A stretch of DNA of 50,585 nucleotides, from positions 1 to 50,585 of the IMG/VR virus record IMGVR_UViG_3300025695_000017. One strand, written 5' to 3'. Positions within the stretch are counted from its first letter, which is position 1. Every line of letters starts with the position of its first letter. The notes beneath the pieces were generated by a model. It made no database searches, was not told where the DNA came from, and worked only from the letters and a program-made list of their open reading frames with translations. A program made the translations under genes and the position numbers. Shown here piece after piece: positions 1,978 through 42,893 of the stretch. The DNA is from a virus.

Positions 1978-2819
1978 TGTCTTGGAGTTTATTCAAAGCA
2001 AATATAATCCGAAAAACTAATCCTAAGTTTAACAACAACAATATAAATCAGGTTGCTAAGATTTGGGCTGATGAATATGATGCTGCTGTAAAAAGAGGTA
2101 AGGATTTTATAAACTTTGAATCAATACAAAGTGGTAATAAGGCAATAATGGAAACCTTATTTAAGGTTGCATTATTAAAAGGATTTACAACTCCACCGGG
2201 TCAAAACTTTTCATTAGTAAACGAATTCGGAAATGGTGTAAAGGCATATTGGGCGGGAGCTCAAATGAAACCATTCCCAATTCCATTAATACCAGCACCA
2301 GGTTCAATACAAAACATCTCAGTAAATTCAAATGTTGTGGTTAATGTGGGAACATGGCCGATATATCCACCACTAAGACCAGTAAGGAAGCAGGAAACGA
2401 TGGTAGATATGTTTATACTTGCGGCATTGATACATTTATTTTCAATTGGTGGTTTTATACAAACAACATCATTATACCCATCAGCACCATCACCAATACC
2501 AGCCCCAGGTGTTATTCCATGGACTGGTTATTTAGTACCACCTGCTATACCAATTCCAAATATCAACTTCCCATCGGAAGATGGTAGTGAACCGCCGGGA
2601 ATCGAACAACCTGATACGGATATTAATATATCCGATGAAAATGGTGGTGATAACATTGGACAAGGTAATGAAATAGTTGATGAGTTAGATGGTAATACTT
2701 CATTAGAAAATGTGATAAGTGTTTCCATACCATCGGATGTGGATAATGCATTGGAAATTGATAAGATTGTGGAAGATTTTAAACAACAAATTCAGATGGG
2801 TGGTACTAAGTGTGAATAA
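1977..2819 (+). CDS. Proline-rich tail/baseplate-associated protein of unknown function
   Basis: The 280-residue protein is translationally coupled to the spike gene through a TAATG overlap. Residues 1-95 look globular and helical (AKIWADEYDAAVKRGKDFI). The middle is unusually rich in Pro and Ile (PFPIPLIPAPGSI, YPSAPSPIPAPGVIP) and contains a hydrophobic stretch (VDMFILAALIHLFSIGGFI) that could be a membrane-active or buried helix. The C-terminal third is acidic and low in complexity (many D, E, N and G). It is embedded in the baseplate cluster, which suggests a virion or tail-assembly component. I recognise no family, and the hydrophobic segment could also be a trimerisation core. Confidence 0.7.
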   Translation: MSWSLFKANIIRKTNPKFNNNNINQVAKIWADEYDAAVKRGKDFINFESIQSGNKAIMETLFKVALLKGFTTPPGQNFSLVNEFGNGVKAYWAGAQMKPFPIPLIPAPGSIQNISVNSNVVVNVGTWPIYPPLRPVRKQETMVDMFILAALIHLFSIGGFIQTTSLYPSAPSPIPAPGVIPWTGYLVPPAIPIPNINFPSEDGSEPPGIEQPDTDINISDENGGDNIGQGNEIVDELDGNTSLENVISVSIPSDVDNALEIDKIVEDFKQQIQMGGTKCE

Positions 2820-2841
2820 AAAACGAAAAAACCCAAAACAA

Positions 2842-2850
2842 ATATTTATA
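2842..2850 (+). promoter_or_regulatory. Putative phage late promoter motif ATATTTATA
   Basis: This copy lies in the 54-nt gap before the gene at 2874, 23 nt upstream of its ATG. The right flank TAGA matches other copies. Confidence 0.6.
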
Positions 2851-2873
2851 TAGAAAGGAAAACATTTTATATA

Positions 2874-3446
2874 ATGAATACTGATAAATTAGTCAAAGCA
2901 ATACAAATTATTGTTAAAGAAGAAATTAAAGAAGCTCTTCCTAAATTGGTTAAAGAAGGTGTGAAAAGAGAGATGGCTAAGTTGTTGAAAGAAAACAAAC
3001 AATTGAGAGAAGCTCTTAAACCACAAAAGCCTCAACAACCAACATTTATGGATGAGACTGTTATGGAAAGTGTAGTACATCAGCCAACCCAACATCAAAC
3101 TCAACAAACACAAAGAAAGTTGAGTAAGAATCCGGTGTTAAACGAAATACTACAACAAACTCAACCATTTAATGGTTCTCAAAACACACCAACACCATCT
3201 TATGCTGGTGCACCAACTGAGGTATCAAATGGAACTATGCATTTTGATTCAAACTCAACTCATACATTGGGTGCTGGAAATATAGCACAAAAAATGGGAT
3301 ATGGTGATATGGTTCAACCAGGTCAAAGACAAGGATTAGGAGTACAAACAGGTAATCCATCTATTGATAAAGCATTGAATAGAGATTATAGTGGATTGAT
3401 GAAAGCATTAGATAAGAAGAAAGGTCCTTATAGACCGGGAATGTAA
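2874..3446 (+). CDS. Hypothetical low-complexity structural or assembly protein
   Basis: The 190-residue protein begins with a strongly amphipathic, Lys/Glu-rich helix (about 1-50, coiled-coil-like, for example KEEIKEALPKLVKEGVKRE). A Gln/Pro/Thr-rich, probably disordered linker follows (about 50-120), then a Gly-rich C-terminus ending KKKGPYRPGM. It starts a transcription unit of its own behind a late-type motif and sits eight bases upstream of gp25. The composition suits a scaffold or tether, possibly a baseplate assembly factor. I do not recognise a family. Confidence 0.75.
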   Translation: MNTDKLVKAIQIIVKEEIKEALPKLVKEGVKREMAKLLKENKQLREALKPQKPQQPTFMDETVMESVVHQPTQHQTQQTQRKLSKNPVLNEILQQTQPFNGSQNTPTPSYAGAPTEVSNGTMHFDSNSTHTLGAGNIAQKMGYGDMVQPGQRQGLGVQTGNPSIDKALNRDYSGLMKALDKKKGPYRPGM

Positions 3447-3454
3447 TATAGATT

Positions 3455-3883
3455 ATGGCAGTTGAGTTAGGAAGAAAGATTGTAAAAGATACCAAAGATT
3501 TTGCAAACTACGCAATTGGTATCACCTTACCATTAACGTTTGGTGAGAATACTTTCGAGCAATCTTATCTCACAAAAGACCAAGTTAAATCTAATATTAA
3601 AAACTTACTTTTAACAAAAAGAGGTGAACGAATATTACAACCAGAATTTGGTAGTGGATTACAATCATTGTTATTCGAACCAAATGTTGATGATTTGGAA
3701 GGTAGACTTGAGGATACTATTAATGAAAGTTTAGAACAATGGCTACCATACGTTACAGCAGAACAAATTGATATTGAAACAACCGATGAGTTGAAAGATA
3801 ATAACCAATTAAATGTTTCAATTGATTTTAGAATTGGTGATGATATCAATTTAGAAACATTAACATTTACAGTACAGGGATAA
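3455..3883 (+). CDS. 25: Baseplate wedge subunit gp25-like
   Basis: The 142-residue protein matches the gp25/W family of contractile-tail baseplate wedges, which nucleate sheath assembly next to gp6 and gp53. Family features are visible. After an N-terminal region there is a conserved helix with DQVKSNIKNLLLTKRGERILQ, followed by PEFGSGLQSLLFEPN, the hallmark of gp25-like proteins. The C-terminus ends in a beta hairpin (VSIDFRIGDDINLETLTF). The length is close to T4 gp25 (132). It is followed six bases later by gp6, the same partner as in other T4-like phages. Confidence 0.93.
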   Translation: MAVELGRKIVKDTKDFANYAIGITLPLTFGENTFEQSYLTKDQVKSNIKNLLLTKRGERILQPEFGSGLQSLLFEPNVDDLEGRLEDTINESLEQWLPYVTAEQIDIETTDELKDNNQLNVSIDFRIGDDINLETLTFTVQG

Positions 3884-18648: not shown

Positions 18649-19590
18649 ATGCTCTCCGCTAGAAACAAATTAGTTGTTATTAATGTATTAGATTCTGCTT
18701 TAGGTGTTGGTTCATCTTTAAAGGGAAATGAACAGGCACATCATTGTCCGTTCTGCCACCACCATAAGAAGAAACTACAAATAAATGTTGAAACTCAATA
18801 TTGGCATTGTTGGGTATGTGATTCAAAGGGTAGAAGTATCCAATCACTACTCAATCGCTTAAATGTTGATAGAAATGATATAGGTAAAATTATTTCTATA
18901 TATGGTGAATACAAGCCAACTAACAATCAAAGGGAGATTGAAAAGGTAGTACTCAAACTACCAAAGGAATTTAAATCACTCTACCACAAACCGAAATCAA
19001 TCAACCCAATTTACAATCAGGCTATTGGATATCTACTGAATAGAGGTATTACAATGGATGAGGTATTAAAATACAATATTGGGTATTGTGAAGATGGATT
19101 GTATGGTGGTAGAGTGATTATTCCATCTTATAGTGAAGAGGGTGAACTGAACTATTTTATAGCTCGTTCCTTTTATAAGGATTCAACTATGAAGTATAAA
19201 AATCCACCAGTCAGTAGAAATGTAATTGTATTTGATAACCAAATTAATTGGAATGAGCCAATCACCTTAGTTGAAGGTGTGTTTGATTCATTCGCAGTTA
19301 AGAGAAACGTAATCCCAATCTTAGGGAAGTTTCTACCTCGAACTTTGAAAGAAAAGATTTTCGAAAAAGGTGTAAGGGAAATCAACATACTATTAGATTC
19401 AGATGCAGTGGATGATTCCACACAACACGCTAATTACTTTATTCAAAATGGTATAAAAGTAACGAACATCATTCCAAACGGAAATTCAGATGCAGGTGAG
19501 TTGGGATTTGATAAAGTAAACGAATTACTAAAAGAAACCGAAGAAAGTGGTTGGGATGATTTAATCCTATCAAAACTAAACAATTTATGA
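18649..19590 (+). CDS. 61: DNA primase, T4 gp61-like
   Basis: The 313-residue protein makes RNA primers for lagging-strand replication, normally with the gp41 helicase. The N-terminal zinc-binding domain shows C33-P-F-C36 and C54-W-V-C57. The TOPRIM core is visible as LVEGVFDSFAVK with its catalytic Glu (about residue 207) and the DxD motif in INILLDSDAVDDS (about 248). Its length is close to T4 gp61 (342). It is transcribed from the host-type promoter at 18601 and its TGA overlaps the next ATG (ATGA), coupling it to the gp47-gp46 fusion. T4 primase is likewise a separate protein from the helicase. Confidence 0.92.
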   Translation: MLSARNKLVVINVLDSALGVGSSLKGNEQAHHCPFCHHHKKKLQINVETQYWHCWVCDSKGRSIQSLLNRLNVDRNDIGKIISIYGEYKPTNNQREIEKVVLKLPKEFKSLYHKPKSINPIYNQAIGYLLNRGITMDEVLKYNIGYCEDGLYGGRVIIPSYSEEGELNYFIARSFYKDSTMKYKNPPVSRNVIVFDNQINWNEPITLVEGVFDSFAVKRNVIPILGKFLPRTLKEKIFEKGVREINILLDSDAVDDSTQHANYFIQNGIKVTNIIPNGNSDAGELGFDKVNELLKETEESGWDDLILSKLNNL

Positions 19591-22500
19591 AGGTAGAAAA
19601 GATTTACCATTTAGCGGATTTACATATCCGTAATTTGAAAAGACATACGGAGTATAGAGAAGTATTCCAAAAGTTCTTAGATAATGTAGATAGAGATAAT
19701 ATCGAAAACTCTATCATTTATTTAGCTGGTGATATTGCACATGCTAAAACCGAAATGAGTCCCGAATTAGTAAGGGAGATTAGTTGGTTCTTAACTGAGT
19801 GTGCTAATCGAAAGGAAACATTTATGATTACTGGTAATCACGATTGTAACCTAAATAATAATTATCGTTTGGATGTACTAACTCCAATCGTAGAAAACTT
19901 AAACAATGAAAGAATACATTACCTTAGAGATACTGGTATCTATCCCTTCCATAATATTACTTTTGTGGTATATTCGATACTCGATGAAAAAGAGAATTGG
20001 CCAAAGGCGGAATTGGTAGAAGGTGAGAATACTATATGTTTATTCCATGGACCTGTAAACTTAGCACAAACTGATATCGGATACACTGTATCATCCAACT
20101 CATTCACAACTGATATGTTTGAAGGATTTGATATGGTGATGTTAGGTGATATCCACAAAAGACAAACTTTAGGTTCACCAACGATTGCATATGCTGGTTC
20201 TATGATTCAACAAAATCACGGAGAAGCATTGGATAAGCATGGTTATCTATTATGGGATGTTGAAAGTAGAACGTTCGAAGAGTTTGATATTGAAAATGAT
20301 TATGGATTCTATACCTTAGATGTAAACGATGGTGTAGTTCCAAATGTTTCAGATATGCCAAAGAAACCCCGATTGAGAGTTCGTATTTCAAATACTGACC
20401 CAACTCAGATTAAGAGAGCATTAACTGAAATCAAAAAGAAATATAAGGTAGAGGAATTTACTGTTACGAGAATGGATACACTCTCAAAACAAAAGACTGG
20501 TAACTTTGATGATAAGTTGGCAATCGGAAATGTGAGAGATGTGGAATTCCAAAACGAACTGATTAAGGATTACTTAGAAAGACAATACTTAGCAGATGAG
20601 GATACTGTTGATAAGATTCAACAACTCAATAGGGATATGAATACAAAGTTGGTAGATGATGATGTTGTACCGAACATCCAATGGATACCAAAGACATTTG
20701 AGTTCTCTAATATGTTCTCTTATGGTGAGAACAACAAAATTAGATTCGATAACGCTAAAGGAATGGTGGGAGTATTTGCACCAAACGCTAGTGGTAAATC
20801 ATCTTTATTTGATGCTATCTCATTTTGTATTTTCGATAAGACGAGTAGAACTTATATGGCAAAAAACATAATGAATAATAGAAAAGATAAATTCTATTGT
20901 AAATTAAGTTTTCAGATTGATGGTGTAGATTACTTTATTGAAAGAAGTGCTAAACTAATCAACAAAGGTAAGAATGTAAAAGTAGATGTTTCTTTTTGGA
21001 GAGAAGATGATGGTGGTATCACTTCTTTAAATGGAGAGCAGAGAAGAGAAACCAACGCAAATATTCAACAATACTTAGGTACTTATGATGATTTCGTTTT
21101 AACCACTCTTTCTCTTCAAGGAAACAACGCTTTATTTATTGATAAATCTCAAACTGAGAGAAAGGAAATCTTAGCTCAATTTATGGGTGTAGATGTGTTT
21201 GATAAACTATACTCTTTTGCACAAGAAGAGAATAGAGATAACTCATCTTTAATCCGTAAGTTTAAGCAAGATGATTTTACTCAAAAGTTGGCTGATATCG
21301 AAACTACCTTAAAGGAGAAGGAATCTGAATATAAACTTACTGAGATTCAGTTAAATAGTTCTAAGAGTGAAGTTGAGAAGCACAATCAAAAGTTAATTTC
21401 TCTAAATGAGAAAATTGTAAAAGTTAAATCAGATAACTATTCGTTGGATGCGTTGGAAACTAATAAATTAAAATTAGAATCATCTATTACTGATTTAGAA
21501 GAGCAACGTAATACTACTCAAAGTATAATTAATGAGTTAGAAGAAAAGCAACTTAAATTAGAAGAAGAGATTGATACCTATGATGAAGATAAAATCACAA
21601 AAGAACATCAATTATTCAACAAATATACATCCGATTTAAAGGATTTAGATAATGAGTTAGATAAGTTGAAAATCAAAGAAGATTCTTTGATGGATAGAAT
21701 GAGGCATTTGGAATCACATAAATACAATAAAGATTGTGATATTTGTATGGAGAATTCTGAATCAATCATTGATGCTAAAGTTGGTGTTGAAGCTGATTTA
21801 GCTACTATCGAAGTTGATAAGAAACAAATGTTTGAAGATAAGAATGTTCTACTTCTTGCTATTGATACTCGTAAAAAGTATTCTGATTTGTTAAGTAACC
21901 TTACCAAATTAAAATCAGATGAGGAAAGGGTAAGTAAAAATATTAACACACTTATCAACAAGTTATCAACATTCGAAACCAAAGAAATCAAACTAAATAA
22001 CGAAGTTCTACAAGTTATACAACTTATTGAAGATTATTTAGATAATGAGAAGCAGATTGAAATCAATCAACAATTGAGAGTAGATATGAAGAATGTTCGA
22101 AACGAACTAAGTTCAGCTAAGAATACTACTGATTCACTAAATACTCAGATTCTTAAACTAAATGGTGAGGTATCATCGTTAAAGAATCAAAAGGAAACTA
22201 TTGAAGAGAGAATCAAAGAGGTAGAACAATTAGAAGAACAACATGGTTTGTTTGAGTATTACCTAAACGCTTTGGGTAAGGATGGTGTATCTTATGAATT
22301 GATTTCTAAGGCACTACCAATGATTGAAGGTGAGGTAAACAACATCTTAGGTCAGATTGTAGATTTCGGATTACAATTAGATATGGATGGTAAGAACATC
22401 AACGCTAACATCGTTTACGATGACCAGAAATGGAGTTTAGAGATGTGTAGTGGTATGGAGAAGTTCATTAGTGGTTTAGCGATTAGAATCGCTCTAATCA

Positions 22501-22718
22501 ACGTATGTAACCTACCTCGTCCAAACTTCTTAGTTGTAGATGAAGGATTTGGTACATTAGATAATGAAAACCTAACATCATTGTATATGTTGTTCGCTTA
22601 TCTAAAAACACAATTCGATTTCGTAATGATTATCTCACACATCGATTCAATGAGAGATGTAGTTGATAACCTAATGGAAATCAAAAAAGTAAATGGATTT
22701 AGTAATATTAAATTTTAA
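19587..22718 (+). CDS. 47-46: Fused recombination nuclease gp47-gp46 (SbcD-SbcC / Mre11-Rad50) in one chain
   Basis: The 1043-residue protein fuses two proteins that are separate in T4 and most organisms. Residues 1-~340 are an Mre11/SbcD calcineurin-like phosphoesterase: D11-L-H13, G48-D49, GNHD at 83-86, and GDIHKRQT further on. Residues ~365-1043 are a Rad50/SbcC ATPase: Walker A at 398-406 (APNASGKSS), a long coiled coil, a zinc-hook C717-D-I-C720, an ABC signature region (MCSGMEKFISG), Walker B VVDEGFG with D985-E986, and an ISHID switch. The frame is continuous and all motifs are intact, so this is not a frameshift artefact. It resects DNA ends for recombination-dependent replication. 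It follows primase by an ATGA overlap. Confidence 0.93.
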   Translation: MKVEKIYHLADLHIRNLKRHTEYREVFQKFLDNVDRDNIENSIIYLAGDIAHAKTEMSPELVREISWFLTECANRKETFMITGNHDCNLNNNYRLDVLTPIVENLNNERIHYLRDTGIYPFHNITFVVYSILDEKENWPKAELVEGENTICLFHGPVNLAQTDIGYTVSSNSFTTDMFEGFDMVMLGDIHKRQTLGSPTIAYAGSMIQQNHGEALDKHGYLLWDVESRTFEEFDIENDYGFYTLDVNDGVVPNVSDMPKKPRLRVRISNTDPTQIKRALTEIKKKYKVEEFTVTRMDTLSKQKTGNFDDKLAIGNVRDVEFQNELIKDYLERQYLADEDTVDKIQQLNRDMNTKLVDDDVVPNIQWIPKTFEFSNMFSYGENNKIRFDNAKGMVGVFAPNASGKSSLFDAISFCIFDKTSRTYMAKNIMNNRKDKFYCKLSFQIDGVDYFIERSAKLINKGKNVKVDVSFWREDDGGITSLNGEQRRETNANIQQYLGTYDDFVLTTLSLQGNNALFIDKSQTERKEILAQFMGVDVFDKLYSFAQEENRDNSSLIRKFKQDDFTQKLADIETTLKEKESEYKLTEIQLNSSKSEVEKHNQKLISLNEKIVKVKSDNYSLDALETNKLKLESSITDLEEQRNTTQSIINELEEKQLKLEEEIDTYDEDKITKEHQLFNKYTSDLKDLDNELDKLKIKEDSLMDRMRHLESHKYNKDCDICMENSESIIDAKVGVEADLATIEVDKKQMFEDKNVLLLAIDTRKKYSDLLSNLTKLKSDEERVSKNINTLINKLSTFETKEIKLNNEVLQVIQLIEDYLDNEKQIEINQQLRVDMKNVRNELSSAKNTTDSLNTQILKLNGEVSSLKNQKETIEERIKEVEQLEEQHGLFEYYLNALGKDGVSYELISKALPMIEGEVNNILGQIVDFGLQLDMDGKNINANIVYDDQKWSLEMCSGMEKFISGLAIRIALINVCNLPRPNFLVVDEGFGTLDNENLTSLYMLFAYLKTQFDFVMIISHIDSMRDVVDNLMEIKKVNGFSNIKF

Positions 22719-37811: not shown

Positions 37812-38195
37812 ATGAAAGTTTGGATTAACGGATGTTTTGATGTTTTACATTATGGACATTTTCAATTAATTTCTCATGCTAAATCATTGGGTGGTGAGCT
37901 AAAAATTGGAATAGATTCCGATAAAAGAGTGAAAGAATCTAAAGGAGATAGTAGACCATTCCATACTGAGAATCAGCGAATATTCAACTTACTTCAAATT
38001 GAAGGTGTGAATAGTGTTGTAGTATTTGATTCTGATAAAGAACTATCTGATTTAATTAAAGATTACAAACCTGATATTTTTGTAATTGGTGATGAATATA
38101 AGGATAGGGGAATTATTGGTAGAAAGCATGCTAAACGAATTGAATACTTTCCAAAAGTGGAAGGATTCTCAACAACTGGATTATTAGATGAATAG
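37812..38195 (+). CDS. rfaE2: ADP-heptose synthase, adenylyltransferase half (HldE C-terminal domain-like)
   Basis: The 127-residue protein transfers AMP to heptose-1-phosphate to give ADP-heptose. The nucleotidyltransferase core shows NGCFDVLHYGH (HxGH at 13-16), SDKRVKESKGDSRP (K44-P49, a signature of the HldE/RfaE C-terminal domain), DIFVIGDEY and GFSTTGLL. The length is about that of the free-standing domain. TagD/GCT-type cytidylyltransferases share the HxGH motif, but the KGDSRP motif and the adjacent HldE-like kinase favour ADP-heptose. It begins right after the heptosyltransferase stop (TAA, ATG) and overlaps the kinase gene by 8 bases. Confidence 0.87.
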   Translation: MKVWINGCFDVLHYGHFQLISHAKSLGGELKIGIDSDKRVKESKGDSRPFHTENQRIFNLLQIEGVNSVVVFDSDKELSDLIKDYKPDIFVIGDEYKDRGIIGRKHAKRIEYFPKVEGFSTTGLLDE

Positions 38196-38940
38196 AGTAT
38201 TAGTTATAGGAGAAAGGTGTGATGATATCTTCATTTATGGTGATACTCCCCGTTTATCACCCGAAGGACCGGCACCAGTATTTATTCCAACGAGAGAAGT
38301 TTACAATGGTGGGATGGGTGAAAATGTGATGAATAATCTACTATCTTTAAAAATTGATGTAGATTTCGAACATCAGAAATCACCAATTACAAAGACAAGA
38401 CATATTCACGAATCATCGAATACCTTATTGTTAAGAATTGATGAAGATGGAAATACAGATAATATAGGTGATAGATTACCTAAAATAGATTTTTGGGAAT
38501 ATCAAATGGTAGTAATTTCAGATTACAACAAAGGTTTCCTATCTGAAGAAGATATTGCTTATATAGCATATAAACACCCAAACACAATTTGTGATACCAA
38601 AAAGAAGTTGGGTGATTGGTGTAAAGATTTACGATTCATAAAGCTTAATCGTACTGAGTTCAATAATAATAAAGAATTTATTCAAGAAAACGATTGGATT
38701 TTAGAAAAGTTGATAATTACATTAGATAAGGATGGATGTATGTACAATGGTACATCATATCCAACCGAACAAGTAGAGATTATGGATATCTCAGGAGCTG
38801 GTGATACATTCGTAGCGGGATTTGTGAAGATGTTCTTAGATACCGAAGATATTCCAAAATCAATACAATATGCTAATCGTTGTTCAGCGCAGGTTGTACA
38901 AAAACGAGGTGTAACAACAATAGATTACGAAAACTTATAA
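38188..38940 (+). CDS. rfaE1: Heptose-7-phosphate kinase half of HldE (PfkB family)
   Basis: The 250-residue protein phosphorylates heptose-7-phosphate at C1 in ADP-heptose synthesis. The N-terminal strand VLVIGERCDDIFIYG is followed by PRLSPEGPAPVF (21-32), a hallmark of HldE kinases, and GGMGENVMNNL. The C-terminal PfkB signature is DISGAGDTFVAGF, with G203-A-G-D206 (anion hole and catalytic base). At 250 residues it is shorter than E. coli HldE-N (about 318) by loss of part of the middle, but core motifs are intact. The start overlaps the adenylyltransferase by 8 bases (ATGAATAG), indicating translational coupling and matched expression. Confidence 0.88.
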   Translation: MNRVLVIGERCDDIFIYGDTPRLSPEGPAPVFIPTREVYNGGMGENVMNNLLSLKIDVDFEHQKSPITKTRHIHESSNTLLLRIDEDGNTDNIGDRLPKIDFWEYQMVVISDYNKGFLSEEDIAYIAYKHPNTICDTKKKLGDWCKDLRFIKLNRTEFNNNKEFIQENDWILEKLIITLDKDGCMYNGTSYPTEQVEIMDISGAGDTFVAGFVKMFLDTEDIPKSIQYANRCSAQVVQKRGVTTIDYENL

Positions 38941-39447: not shown

Positions 39448-41136
39448 ATGAACGAATTATCTCAATTTTTAGTAGAGAGTATATTAGGGGAAGCGGACAG
39501 TGTAGACAACAAAGTTGTAGTTTACTCTGGCCGCTTTCAACCGTTTCATAAGGGGCATTACGCAACATATTCTCACTTAGTAAAAAAGTTTGGAAAGGAA
39601 AATGTTTTTATCGGAACATCCAACAAAACCGATAATAAGAAATCACCTTTCAACTTTAAAGAGAAAAAGCAAATAATGACAACGATGTTTGGTGTTCCAT
39701 CAAACAAAATTGTTGAAGTTAAGAATCCATATGTACCAACTGAGGTACTAAAGAAATTCGATAAAGATACTACATCATTCATCACAGTTGTTGGTAAGAA
39801 AGATGCAAATAGATTAGGTGGTAAGTTCTTTACCCCTTACAAAGATAACTTAGATTTTGAAGGATATGAGGATAGGGGGTATGTTTATATAGCTCCCCAA
39901 CAATCCAATCCAATAAGTGGAACCGATGTTCGTATGGGATTACGAAAAGGTTCTGATGCGGATAAGAAAGAGTTCTTTACTAAAAAGGCTTATGGTAAGT
40001 TCAATCCAAAAATATTTAAATTCATAGCAGGTAAACTATCACAACTACCAGAAATAACTTCGGAAAATATTTGGATTCCAAAACACATATTAGAAAATTG
40101 GATAGTTGATAATACTGATTTAATAAATGAAGTTACTACTACAATGGGTAGAGATTCAGTAGATGATGGACCAAACTATATCTATCCAAATTTCAATACA
40201 TTTAATAAGGTTTCTCAAAAAAGAGCAGAGGAAATTGGATACACTGTTTTATCACAAATTATGAGTGATGAACTTACTGATATTGATGACCATCCAATAT
40301 ATCCAAAAGGACCTATAAAAGCAGTAACCCCATTTCCTGCGGGTGTTGCTGGTAAAACCACATCTACTAACCAAAAAGATTTCTATGGTTCTGAGGCTTA
40401 TAATAAGTGGTTTAAACATATAGCTAAGATAGTTGGTATAGTTGGATATTCTTTCGTTGATTACATTGATTTAAATATCGATAAAACTCAATCACTAAGA
40501 GATTTAGATAGTGAGGGTGATGACGTTGGAAATACTTTAAAAGAAGATATCAACCTTCCAGTAAATGTTGGAGATACTATCCTAACAGGTAGATTTAAAA
40601 ACAAAAAGACAGTTGTTAAAACCATTGGTAAGGATGAGTATGGGATGCCAACTATCAATGGTAGAAAGGTTGTAAACTTTCGAATTGTAAGTGAAGGTGT
40701 AAAAGTTCAACTCAACGAAATTCCAATGGGAGACCTTCAAAAGATTGATACATTTGCTGATAAGCAATTAAAACCAGTGGATGTGGTTCTAACTGGTAAA
40801 CATTTCTTCGATAGATTAAATGACCCAAGAAACGGAAAAGAAGTAACAAACGCTGAGTTGATTGGTTTCTTTAAAAGATTGGGTAAAAAGAAAAAAGAAT
40901 TTGTAAACTTCCTTAATCAATATAATCAGATTGTAGCAAAGGATAATAGAACTAATATTAATATTCCATTTATGAAACAAGCGAATAAAGTAATCGCTAA
41001 AACCATAATGAGAAAAGATGACTTTAAAACATCAGACCCGGAATATAAATTTGAAAAATTAGAAAAGGAAAAGTTGAAATACAATGAGCCATACGCTTTA
41101 AGTGGTGGTATCTCTGAATCAACTAATAAAAAATAA
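39448..41136 (+). CDS. Prohead-targeted polyprotein with N-terminal NMN-adenylyltransferase-like domain
   Basis: The 562-residue protein starts MNELSQFLVESILGEADS, similar to T4 capsid-targeting peptides and containing LVE (8-10) and LGE (13-15), which fit the prohead protease rule [L/I]xE. Residues ~20-205 are a nucleotidyltransferase (VVYSGRFQPFHKGHYATY with HxGH; NPISGTDVRMGL, the ISSTxxR-type motif), as in NMN adenylyltransferase. A further I-N-E site at 226-228 separates it from a middle region, an L-N-E site at 422-424 from a C-terminal domain (HFFDRLNDPRNGKEVTNAEL), and an L-K-E at 364-366 is internal. The middle contains VGDTILTGRFKNKKTVVK. The processing model is inferred; the NTase motifs are clear. 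Confidence 0.78.
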   Translation: MNELSQFLVESILGEADSVDNKVVVYSGRFQPFHKGHYATYSHLVKKFGKENVFIGTSNKTDNKKSPFNFKEKKQIMTTMFGVPSNKIVEVKNPYVPTEVLKKFDKDTTSFITVVGKKDANRLGGKFFTPYKDNLDFEGYEDRGYVYIAPQQSNPISGTDVRMGLRKGSDADKKEFFTKKAYGKFNPKIFKFIAGKLSQLPEITSENIWIPKHILENWIVDNTDLINEVTTTMGRDSVDDGPNYIYPNFNTFNKVSQKRAEEIGYTVLSQIMSDELTDIDDHPIYPKGPIKAVTPFPAGVAGKTTSTNQKDFYGSEAYNKWFKHIAKIVGIVGYSFVDYIDLNIDKTQSLRDLDSEGDDVGNTLKEDINLPVNVGDTILTGRFKNKKTVVKTIGKDEYGMPTINGRKVVNFRIVSEGVKVQLNEIPMGDLQKIDTFADKQLKPVDVVLTGKHFFDRLNDPRNGKEVTNAELIGFFKRLGKKKKEFVNFLNQYNQIVAKDNRTNINIPFMKQANKVIAKTIMRKDDFKTSDPEYKFEKLEKEKLKYNEPYALSGGISESTNKK

Positions 41137-41146
41137 TAGGATTATT

Positions 41147-41629
41147 ATGATTAAGTTAACCGATTTATTATCAGAAATTGGAGATGGTTCTTCTAAACCA
41201 TACAAATGGAAAGCTCTTTCAAAGAGTAAGATGAAAATAGGAAAAGGACATTCTTACTTCTATAAATTCACCACAGACAATGGAATAGAGTATGATGCTG
41301 AATTCTACTACTCGGTTATTGATGGTAAAAAAGGAAAATTACTTTATCTATTTGAATTTGCACCATCGGATGCTTTTGATGGCGGTGATGATGGTAACCC
41401 ACTGGTTACCGGTGAAGGTGCACCACTTCGTATAATGTCTACTATCGTTCAGATTCTAAAAGACTTTATCGGTAAAAACCCAACAGCTGCCATTGAATAC
41501 TCAGCAGGAAAGAATTTTAGCGGAGATACAAGACGTGCTAAACTTTATATGGCTTATATAAAGAGGTTACTACCTTCTAATTATAAAGTTAGACCCAAGG
41601 GAGATGATGTTCTTATTCAACCTAAATAA
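41147..41629 (+). CDS. Hypothetical prohead-targeted protein
   Basis: The 160-residue protein starts at ATG 41147, ten bases after the previous stop; the longer frame opening at 41102 overlaps the upstream gene and is rejected. The N-terminus MIKLTDLLSEIGDG resembles the targeting peptides of its neighbours, with L-S-E at 8-10. The body is alpha/beta: KIGKGHSYFYKFTTDNGIEY, AEFYYSVIDG, and APLRIMSTIVQILKDFIG, then TRRAKLYMAYIKRLLP. No family is recognised. It has no promoter of its own and probably shares the transcript with 39448 and 41649, hence a likely capsid-interior protein. Confidence 0.75.
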   Translation: MIKLTDLLSEIGDGSSKPYKWKALSKSKMKIGKGHSYFYKFTTDNGIEYDAEFYYSVIDGKKGKLLYLFEFAPSDAFDGGDDGNPLVTGEGAPLRIMSTIVQILKDFIGKNPTAAIEYSAGKNFSGDTRRAKLYMAYIKRLLPSNYKVRPKGDDVLIQPK

Positions 41630-41648: not shown

Positions 41649-42893
41649 ATGATAAGATTAAAAAAATTACTAAGTGAAGTTCTTCTAAATGAAGGTGGTG
41701 CATATGGGCATATGAATCACCCATTCGATACCGAAATCAATTTAACTTTTGGTCAACTTAAAGATATTGTAAATAAAGCATTAGAAGGAAACTTAGATTT
41801 AGCAAGAGAAAAAACCGATGGACAGGCATTAGCTGTAAGTTGGAGAGATGGTAGATTAGTTGCTGCGAGAAACAAAGGACACTTAAAGAACAAAGGTGAA
41901 AACGCTTTGGATATAAAAGGTGTAGCTACTAAGTTTGCTGGTAGAGGTGAATTAGAAAAGGCATATAACTTTGCTATGAATGATTTATCAAAAGCAATCA
42001 AATCACTTTCTGAAAAACAAAGAGATAAAATCTTTAAAGGTGGTGCATGTTTTATGAACTTAGAAGTAATATACCCAACTTCAGTAAATGTAATACCTTA
42101 TGGACAAGCACTATTGGTATTTCATGGTACTATGGAATTTAATGAAGATGGTGTAGCAATTGGTGAAAATCAAAATGCGGCTAAGATACTTGCTGGAATG
42201 ATTAAACAAGTAAATCAAGATGTACAATCAGCATATACAATATCAGGTCCTCCAATTAATCAATTACCTAAGAGTAAAGATTTAACTTCTCTGAAGGGTA
42301 AATACAATTCTAAAATATCAAAATTACAATCTAAATACAAATTAAAAGATACTGATGGAATTGCTGATTATCATCAAGCCTTTTGGATGGATTTCGTAAC
42401 TAAAAAATCACCAACAAAATTAGATAATAGAACTCTAATGGGATTGGTAAAAAGATGGGCATTCTATGATAAGAGTTTCCGTTTAGACAAGAAGAATTTT
42501 AGTGATGAGAAAACTTTAGAATGGGCAAAGGGAATTGATAAGAATGACCATGCTAAGATTGCTAAAGATAACATCAGACCATTTGAAGATATCTTCTTAG
42601 GTGTAGGTGCAGATATTCTATCTTTTATGAGTTCAGTACTTGCAGCTAACCCTGATAAAGCAGTTAGGGATATGAAGAAGAGATTGGATAAAACTATCAA
42701 AGATGTTCAAAAGAGTGGCGATGAAAAGAAAATCAACAAACTTAAATTGGAACTACAAAGATTGAACGCAATCGGTGGTAAAGATAAGATTGTTCCTAAT
42801 GAGGGTATTGTATTTGTATACAATGGAAAGACTTTCAAACTGACTGGAACCTTCGCTCCTCTTAATCAGATATTGGGATTATTTTACGAATAG
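41649..42893 (+). CDS. DNA/RNA ligase-fold nucleotidyltransferase, probably prohead-targeted
   Basis: The 414-residue protein has the core motifs of covalent nucleotidyltransferases (ATP- or NAD-dependent ligases and capping enzymes). Motif I is K55-T-D-G58 in AREKTDGQALAV, with nearby R69 and R74. A motif III-like Glu occurs in FMNLEVIYP (E139). Motif IV is E385-G-I-V388, and motif V is FKLTG with K397. Spacing between III and IV is longer than usual because of a helical insertion (about 220-370, LKLELQRLNAIGG). The N-terminus MIRLKKLLSEVLLNEGG has L-S-E and L-N-E sites like its neighbours. Nick sealing or RNA repair is inferred; substrate unknown. No OB-fold domain is evident after motif V. 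Confidence 0.75.
   Translation: MIRLKKLLSEVLLNEGGAYGHMNHPFDTEINLTFGQLKDIVNKALEGNLDLAREKTDGQALAVSWRDGRLVAARNKGHLKNKGENALDIKGVATKFAGRGELEKAYNFAMNDLSKAIKSLSEKQRDKIFKGGACFMNLEVIYPTSVNVIPYGQALLVFHGTMEFNEDGVAIGENQNAAKILAGMIKQVNQDVQSAYTISGPPINQLPKSKDLTSLKGKYNSKISKLQSKYKLKDTDGIADYHQAFWMDFVTKKSPTKLDNRTLMGLVKRWAFYDKSFRLDKKNFSDEKTLEWAKGIDKNDHAKIAKDNIRPFEDIFLGVGADILSFMSSVLAANPDKAVRDMKKRLDKTIKDVQKSGDEKKINKLKLELQRLNAIGGKDKIVPNEGIVFVYNGKTFKLTGTFAPLNQILGLFYE

Follow-up and report, generated by a model that had tools for sequence, protein, structure and literature searches.

An RNA-ligase-like nucleotidyltransferase with a capsid-targeting-like N terminus, usually the last module of a fused protein, in aquatic phages

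The ORF located at positions 41,649 to 42,893 (plus strand, 414 amino acids) of the window, i.e., the whole stretch of 50,585 nucleotides of viral DNA that was analyzed, encodes an RNA-ligase-like nucleotidyltransferase, as indicated by its sequence, the alignment of its relatives and its predicted fold, and its place, strand and length are those of the original prediction. Considering the evidence as a whole, we lean, by a little, toward a head-packaged, ATP-using RNA-end adenylyltransferase/ligase that would be part of an injected repair kit. The original prediction had missed that this ligase mostly forms the end of a polyprotein, which is probably cleavable, that it has an NMN-adenylyltransferase-like partner and that it is akin to DUF6267. 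Host anticodon nucleases and NADases act fast, and a repair enzyme in the capsid, if indeed packaged, would be at work before phage gene expression begins.

Conserved motifs of the ligase-like protein

The features that characterize the covalent nucleotidyltransferase superfamily, i.e., the lysine of the KxDG motif together with motifs Ia, III, IV and V, are present in the protein, with the exception of the second lysine of motif V. In particular, motif I (EKTDG, 41,808 to 41,822) contains K55, the predicted AMP acceptor, and its E, K, D and G are invariant in 50/50 rows of the alignment, as are A73, R74 and K76 of motif Ia (ARNKG, 41,865 to 41,879) and E139 of motif III (MNLEVI, 42,054 to 42,071), which aligns with NFEFVA of T4 RNA ligase 1 (Rnl1). 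An N-x-I-x-Y motif (N147 and Y151; 42,087 to 42,101) aligns with the same motif of DUF6267, and the alignment of relatives places motif IV (EGIVF, with E385 in a PNEGIVF context) at 42,801 to 42,815 and motif V (FKLTG, with K397) at 42,834 to 42,848, all on the plus strand. The relatives in the alignment are 48 to 87% identical to the window protein, and the residues identical in all 50 rows are E54, K55, D57, G58, A73, R74, K76, E139, P383, E385, G386, K397, T399 and G400; after the addition of three relatives at 37 to 41% identity, E54, K55, D57, G58, R74, E139, E385, G386 and K397 are still invariant. The four motifs originally named (KTDG with K55, E139, EGIV with E385 and FKLTG with K397) could all be found and are no chance occurrence, their catalytic residues being the same in each of the 50 rows.

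The separation between motifs III and IV, originally given as about 245 residues with a helical insertion, amounts to 246 residues with helices in between, and the predicted model delimits the insertion, from motif IIIa to motif IV, to residues 176 to 382 (42,174 to 42,794, plus strand). In motif V, a threonine replaces the second lysine (KLTG), whereas T4 Rnl1 has KIK. Since the chain stops 14 residues past FKLTG, the window ligase has neither an OB-fold nor any other C-terminal domain.

Predicted structure and likely substrate

The window protein matches none of the families of Pfam, PHROGs or NCBIfam. When the PDB was searched by sequence, either with the protein or with its profile, only chance-like matches came up, such as ribosomal protein eS6 (E value of 0.0038) within the insertion, and these were discarded. 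The AlphaFold model has a pLDDT of 83.9 and a pTM of 0.79, with residues 1 to 28 below a pLDDT of 50. The top 14 rows of the Foldseek comparison with the PDB are all RNA ligases, with modest E values (0.025 to 0.24) that lie above 0.001, and the VIA-align Z scores are 8.2 for the Naegleria RNA ligase, 7.7 for T4 Rnl1, 7.5 to 7.9 for fungal tRNA ligase and 5.0 to 6.9 for DNA ligases, where a Z score of about 8 may, according to the alignment tool, mean merely a common arrangement. The hhalign comparison puts motifs I, Ia and III of the window family in register with those of T4 Rnl1 at a marginal E value of 0.19, and it is marginal elsewhere too (0.051 to Rnl2 and 0.033 to DUF6267). The insertion folded alone (pLDDT of 72.7) has no significant match among the solved structures, the best E value being 1.1. 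No single fold score is decisive, yet the motif order and the predicted fold agree, in keeping with the covalent nucleotidyltransferase originally proposed, and the window protein almost certainly adopts a nucleotidyltransferase fold.

Two sealing roles had been put forward, on DNA and on RNA. Since RNA ligases are the solved structures closest to the model (Z up to 8.2) and the chain is too short past motif V to hold an OB-fold, RNA sealing fits the model better than DNA sealing, for which the structural matches score 5.0 to 6.9. The fold likeness and the missing OB domain make RNA the probable substrate, and, given its predicted fold and its neighbors, the protein may act in RNA repair.

Distribution of the family

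The ligase family is common in aquatic viral contigs, large and unnamed. One scan of the IMG/VR viral contigs found at least 591 loci encoding a relative of the window ligase, and a second scan, with a profile, found 580, the best 80 of which for the more distant query were retained; the working set consists of 160 IMG/VR loci (80 from each scan) and three phage records. The latter, at 37 to 41% identity, were found by tblastn in 50,697 phage records; two belong to uncultured phages lacking annotation, and the third is Microcystis phage Mel-JY01, the sole named phage in which the family was found. Prokaryote genomes contributed 9 loci, all in assemblies titled as MAG or uncultured, several of which resemble phage contigs. 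The commonest family match is Pfam RNA_ligase (PF09414), which occurs in 25/50 relatives at E values up to 0.1 (best, 0.0012) and is absent from the window copy; PF09511, the T4 Rnl1 model, matches neither the window protein nor appears among the 25 families listed for the 50 relatives.

The counts below exclude some loci. L085 (ligase module at 2,426 to 3,661), which has one in-frame stop codon inside the ligase module, was left out of profile A2 and of the tree, L064 (module start cut off) of the counts of 162, and L077 (with an X) of the representatives. L081, which is the window itself, was left out of the fused-state and HIGH counts, of the window-control site count and of the 110-module tree. 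The junction count covers 162 sites from 164 loci, with L081 included and L064 and L024 (start near the contig end) excluded.

Capsid-targeting-like N terminus

Residues 1 to 15, MIRLKKLLSEVLLNE (41,649 to 41,693, plus strand), form a capsid-targeting-like propeptide, proposed on the basis of the tag pattern and lying within the low-pLDDT residues 1 to 28. The first ten residues of T4 IPIII are reported to be enough for packaging, with positions 4 and 7 mattering for targeting and positions 8 and 10 for processing (PMC9026906). These key positions have their counterpart in the window ligase, which has hydrophobic residues at 4, 7 and 8 and a glutamate at 10, and two candidate prohead protease cuts can be recognized, one after E10 and the other after E15, before GGAYGH.

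The removable, capsid-targeting-like peptide of the original prediction finds support in the occurrence of the T4-position pattern in 3/42 window genes versus 0.05 expected from shuffles (maximum of 2 in 1,000); this pattern replaced an earlier one fitted to the window genes (4/41), although the choice of its residue classes was again made with the window genes already known. The three matching genes are consecutive, starting at 39,448, 41,147 and 41,649. Thus, as judged from the sequence, the N-terminal likeness to the T4 tag exceeds chance. The same pattern matches 2/50 genes of the T4 58- to 83-kb region, which are exactly ipII and ipIII, ipI being missed. It also occurs in 8/23 genes around the distant relative L204 (27% identity), the ligase relative included, in 2/15 around another distant relative (L205), in 1/14 in a region of Flavobacterium phage immuto (L167) and, near the protease of closer relatives, in 1/11 (L181) and 0/14 (L182) genes. 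The replication region of S-PM2 has no match among 19 genes.

The eight genes of L204 (1,441 to 9,568; uncultured Firmicutes assembly RUG343) start with MKSLxxYIxE-like, T4-type targeting peptides and form a long array of probable head cargo; a HIGH-type gene is also found there, at 314 to 1,417.

Partner genes and further modules

The gene at 39,448 to 41,136 (plus strand) starts with MNELSQFLVE, a capsid-targeting-like peptide according to the tag pattern (39,448 to 39,477, plus strand), and encodes a HIGH-type, NMN-adenylyltransferase-like domain (PF01467, E value of 7.9e-10, and PDB matches) along with more modules. Between it and the ligase lies a small gene (41,147 to 41,629, plus strand; 160 amino acids) that begins with MIKLTDLLSE, matches the tag pattern and has weak family matches. 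A HIGH motif occurs upstream of the ligase in 55/56 loci having 4 kb of upstream sequence, and the HIGH module is part of 69/70 complete fused ORFs, its best PDB matches being NMN adenylyltransferases (2qjt, E value of 6e-7). Further modules vary among phages and include AAA_33/zeta-like kinase, HD, GNAT and RNase T; in L067, the HD module is similar to the one in CCA tRNA nucleotidyltransferase, with a match below the cut-off.

Several regions deserve a separate mention. The C-terminal module of the 39,448 gene (residues 425 to 531; window positions 40,720 to 41,040) also occurs in Flavobacterium phage immuto, Methylophilales phage Melnitz and Sinorhizobium phages phiM12/phiN3, in each case within hypothetical proteins. 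Phage immuto (L167, 668 to 3,391) has a 907-amino-acid gene whose annotation is NMN adenylyltransferase (NadR); it precedes the terminase gene, other large genes lying in between, and this is possibly a similar cargo region. Elsewhere in the window, a multidomain glycosyltransferase-like ORF is followed by a cytidylyltransferase gene (PF01467) and then a PfkB kinase gene (37,812 to 38,940), a pair reminiscent of the two halves of ADP-heptose synthase RfaE, and the 1,043-amino-acid ORF at 19,587 to 22,718 looks, from its sequence, like a fusion of the T4 gp47 (Mre11/SbcD) and gp46 (Rad50/SbcC) types.

Fusion, junction and putative protease sites

The window ligase is a separate gene, situated upstream of the terminase gene in a head-gene neighborhood, whereas in 135/162 loci the module extends an open frame of at least 100 amino acids and closes a long fused protein; it stands alone in 13 loci, and the remaining 14 were not assigned. 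At least four changes between the fused and the separate state are counted on the tree of 110 modules. The junction LLx(E/M)GG has E in 133 and M in 28 of the 162 sites, with GG in 161, and the form LLx(E or M)GGA is alike in the fused and separate states. Furthermore, the stand-alone start MIRLK(K/E)LLNE persists inside the fused protein of L003, L021 and L022, and of L002 too; in the first three loci, the upstream part ends with ITEST, similar to the ISESTNKK end of the 39,448 gene of the window.

Sites resembling those of prohead protease ([LI]xE[AGS]) are enriched between modules, outside the tag, the junction and the HIGH core, with 62 observed versus 26.8 expected in 30 partly related ORFs (z of 7.0; seven control patterns, z of -2.2 to 3.0), and ten control proteins of the window have 16 versus 12.2. 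The depletion of sites inside the ligase module (1 versus 16.5) was not taken as proof, the control patterns ranging there from z of -3.1 to 5.5, a wide variation that arises because the rows are homologous. A gene for T4-type prohead protease (PF03420; gp21 type) is present in the records of 10/11 relatives, the window, as a 50.6-kb piece, being outside that count. T4 Alt is reported to be cut at ITE-6 and LTE-619 (PMC5694885), and therefore trimming of a cargo protein can take place at its N terminus as well as at its C terminus. Near the prohead protease gene, L181 (4,424 to 5,173) and L182 (5,806 to 7,092) encode two versions of one gene, with the starts MIKLTDLLNEEETF and MIKLGGLIDLKPITEADVF, where a gp21-like site appears again.

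Because of the tag, the conserved junction, the enrichment of sites and the head-gene context, packaging of the window ligase into the head appears likely from the sequence data. Our literature searches returned no description of a member of this ligase family as a virion protein, a paper naming both a capsid targeting sequence and an RNA ligase being left out of account.

Relationship with DUF6267

In the viral structure library, besides close relatives, the model matches an S-PM2 protein annotated as cytidyltransferase-like (E value of 6.7e-4), which consists of DUF6267 (E value of 1.6e-111) followed by a HIGH-type transferase. DUF6267 (PF19782; cyanophage T4-GC 71) shares with the window family, in the same order, an N-terminal HxxH followed by acidic residues, KxDG, NxIxY, FH, EG(F/I)V and K, and both are paired with a HIGH-type cytidyl/adenylyltransferase. 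They differ in the insertion, in the head-gene context and targeting peptide of the window ligase, and in module order, since the ligase precedes HIGH in S-PM2 and follows it in the window family. DUF6267 relatives of S-PM2 are present in 471 of 50,697 phage records, mostly cyanophages. Among the eight DUF6267 loci examined, the HIGH domain is fused in S-PM2 and a gene annotated as cytidyltransferase or cytitidyltransferase adjoins DUF6267 in DSL-LC02, P-TIM40, S-BM1, Syn19 and S-SZBM1, while the annotation of HTVC008M and Bellamy shows no cytidyltransferase gene beside it.

The DUF6267 of cyanophages is the nearest relative family of the window ligase. Since the DUF6267 Pfam model matches neither the window protein nor appears among the families listed for the 50 relatives, the tie is a superfamily link rather than membership. 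The search with profile A2 found nothing in the records of S-PM2, PA5oct, immuto and phiM12, and therefore sequence alone gives no bridge to DUF6267; the hhalign comparison of this profile with the single S-PM2 sequence was too weak to be retained (E value of 0.11). Moreover, the cyanophage DUF6267 genes adjoin replication genes and the pattern finds no tag in the S-PM2 region, and thus packaging is not required in all relatives. Literature searches found nothing on DUF6267, on Mel-JY01 or on cytitidyltransferase in connection with cyanophages. Through this link, a function open to testing can be proposed for an uncharacterized gene of T4-like cyanophages.

Proposed role and alternative explanations

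It is possible to hypothesize that the ligase, made late alongside the head genes, would enter the prohead core by means of its T4-type N-terminal tag, lose this tag to the prohead protease so as to begin with GGAYGH, and be injected with the genome. In most relatives, it would be the last module of a polyprotein that also carries the NMN-adenylyltransferase-like enzyme and other cargo, which the prohead protease would separate. The tag and the near-constant NAD-synthesis-like partner lead us to regard the ligase as probably part of a premade kit injected with phage DNA. Once in the cell, this kit would mend RNA that host defense has cleaved, probably tRNA, and would restore NAD at once, before phage gene expression: K55 would accept AMP from ATP and hand it to a 5'-phosphate, the strand would then be sealed, and the helical insertion would grip the substrate, as the C-terminal domain does in T4 Rnl1 and Rnl2.

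The linkage to the HIGH module could also be read in another way, which we consider unlikely, namely, that the protein is an adenylyltransferase acting with its NMN-adenylyltransferase-like partner on an NAD-centered reaction (RNA capping, or transfer of AMP or NMN to an RNA end or a small molecule) with no strand joining. The near constancy of the linkage, the opposite-order pairing in S-PM2, the neighboring genes in 5/7 other DUF6267 loci examined and the missing second lysine of motif V would suit such a reaction; however, the linkage may reflect shared delivery alone, and we know of no member of the ligase or HIGH fold that performs a paired reaction of this kind.

As for delivery, the location of cyanophage DUF6267 genes among replication genes would agree with an enzyme that is synthesized after infection and never packaged, its likeness to the T4 tag being coincidental or serving another purpose. 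This is improbable in view of the three consecutive tagged genes out of 42, the junction kept in fused and separate forms, the enrichment of protease sites and the position upstream of the terminase gene. Packaging would also suit a DNA ligase-like enzyme sealing nicks or ends of the injected genome, since it would be delivered together with the DNA, and DNA ligases belong to the same superfamily and are among the structural matches (Z of 5.0 to 6.9); nevertheless, RNA ligases score higher structurally, neither an OB-fold nor a motif VI exists past motif V, and hhalign finds motifs I, Ia and III in register with those of T4 Rnl1, so that this reading is hardly probable. Finally, a structural or scaffold protein retaining the ligase fold without catalysis, which the head-gene neighborhood and the altered motif V might suggest, is most improbable given the invariance of the other catalytic residues in relatives down to 37% identity.

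Extending the favored reading of a head-packaged RNA-end ligase, we tentatively propose, though we would not count on it, that a head-delivered polyprotein is widespread in aquatic phages, many of which would have it cut by the prohead protease into a ready kit (NMN-adenylyltransferase-like and RNA-ligase-like enzymes and, in some, kinase, HD, acetyltransferase and exonuclease) for RNA repair and NAD restoration from injection, with the ligase in an unnamed superfamily that also explains DUF6267.

Comparison with known systems

The window ligase is distinct from gp30, Rnl1 and Rnl2 in size and arrangement, as originally stated. It shares with T4 Rnl1 (PF09511) the core fold, the motif register and the surroundings of motif III (NLEVIYPT versus NFEFVAPT in Rnl1), but lacks the C-terminal helical domain after motif V and the second motif V lysine, has the helical insertion and has no Pfam match. 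T4 RNA ligase 2 and the Naegleria RNA ligase (PF09414 type) have a similar core fold (Z of 6.6 to 8.2), and a weak PF09414 match occurs in 25/50 relatives, but the window ligase is without the C-terminal domain of Rnl2 and has the insertion and the HIGH partner. ATP-dependent DNA ligases carry an OB-fold with motif VI after motif V, whereas the window ligase has no residues for one; the NAD-dependent DNA ligase LigA has a Ia domain before motif I, whereas the window ligase has only 53 residues before EKTDG and no family match.

As regards delivery, the T4 internal proteins (IPI to IPIII and Alt) resemble the window ligase in the tag of 10 residues, in which positions 4, 7 and 8 are hydrophobic and position 10 is E, and relatives of the window have the T4-type protease gene; different is the cargo, which is here a ligase-fold enzyme, often in a polyprotein. 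A review of jumbo phages treats RNA ligases, kinases and NAD synthesis as counter-defense (PMC7824862). Polyvalent proteins are head-borne, multidomain effectors likened by their authors to viral polyproteins; the available part of that report describes no ligase among their domains and states that their 2H domains were not observed with RNA ligases (PMC5512222). The fused relatives of the window ligase, itself a separate gene, would be similar to them in that a single, probably head-associated chain combines many enzyme domains unrelated to each other, but their release would be by the prohead protease rather than by an embedded peptidase. If the prohead protease indeed cuts fused cargo, this would represent a second release route for polyvalent cargo, beside the embedded peptidases.
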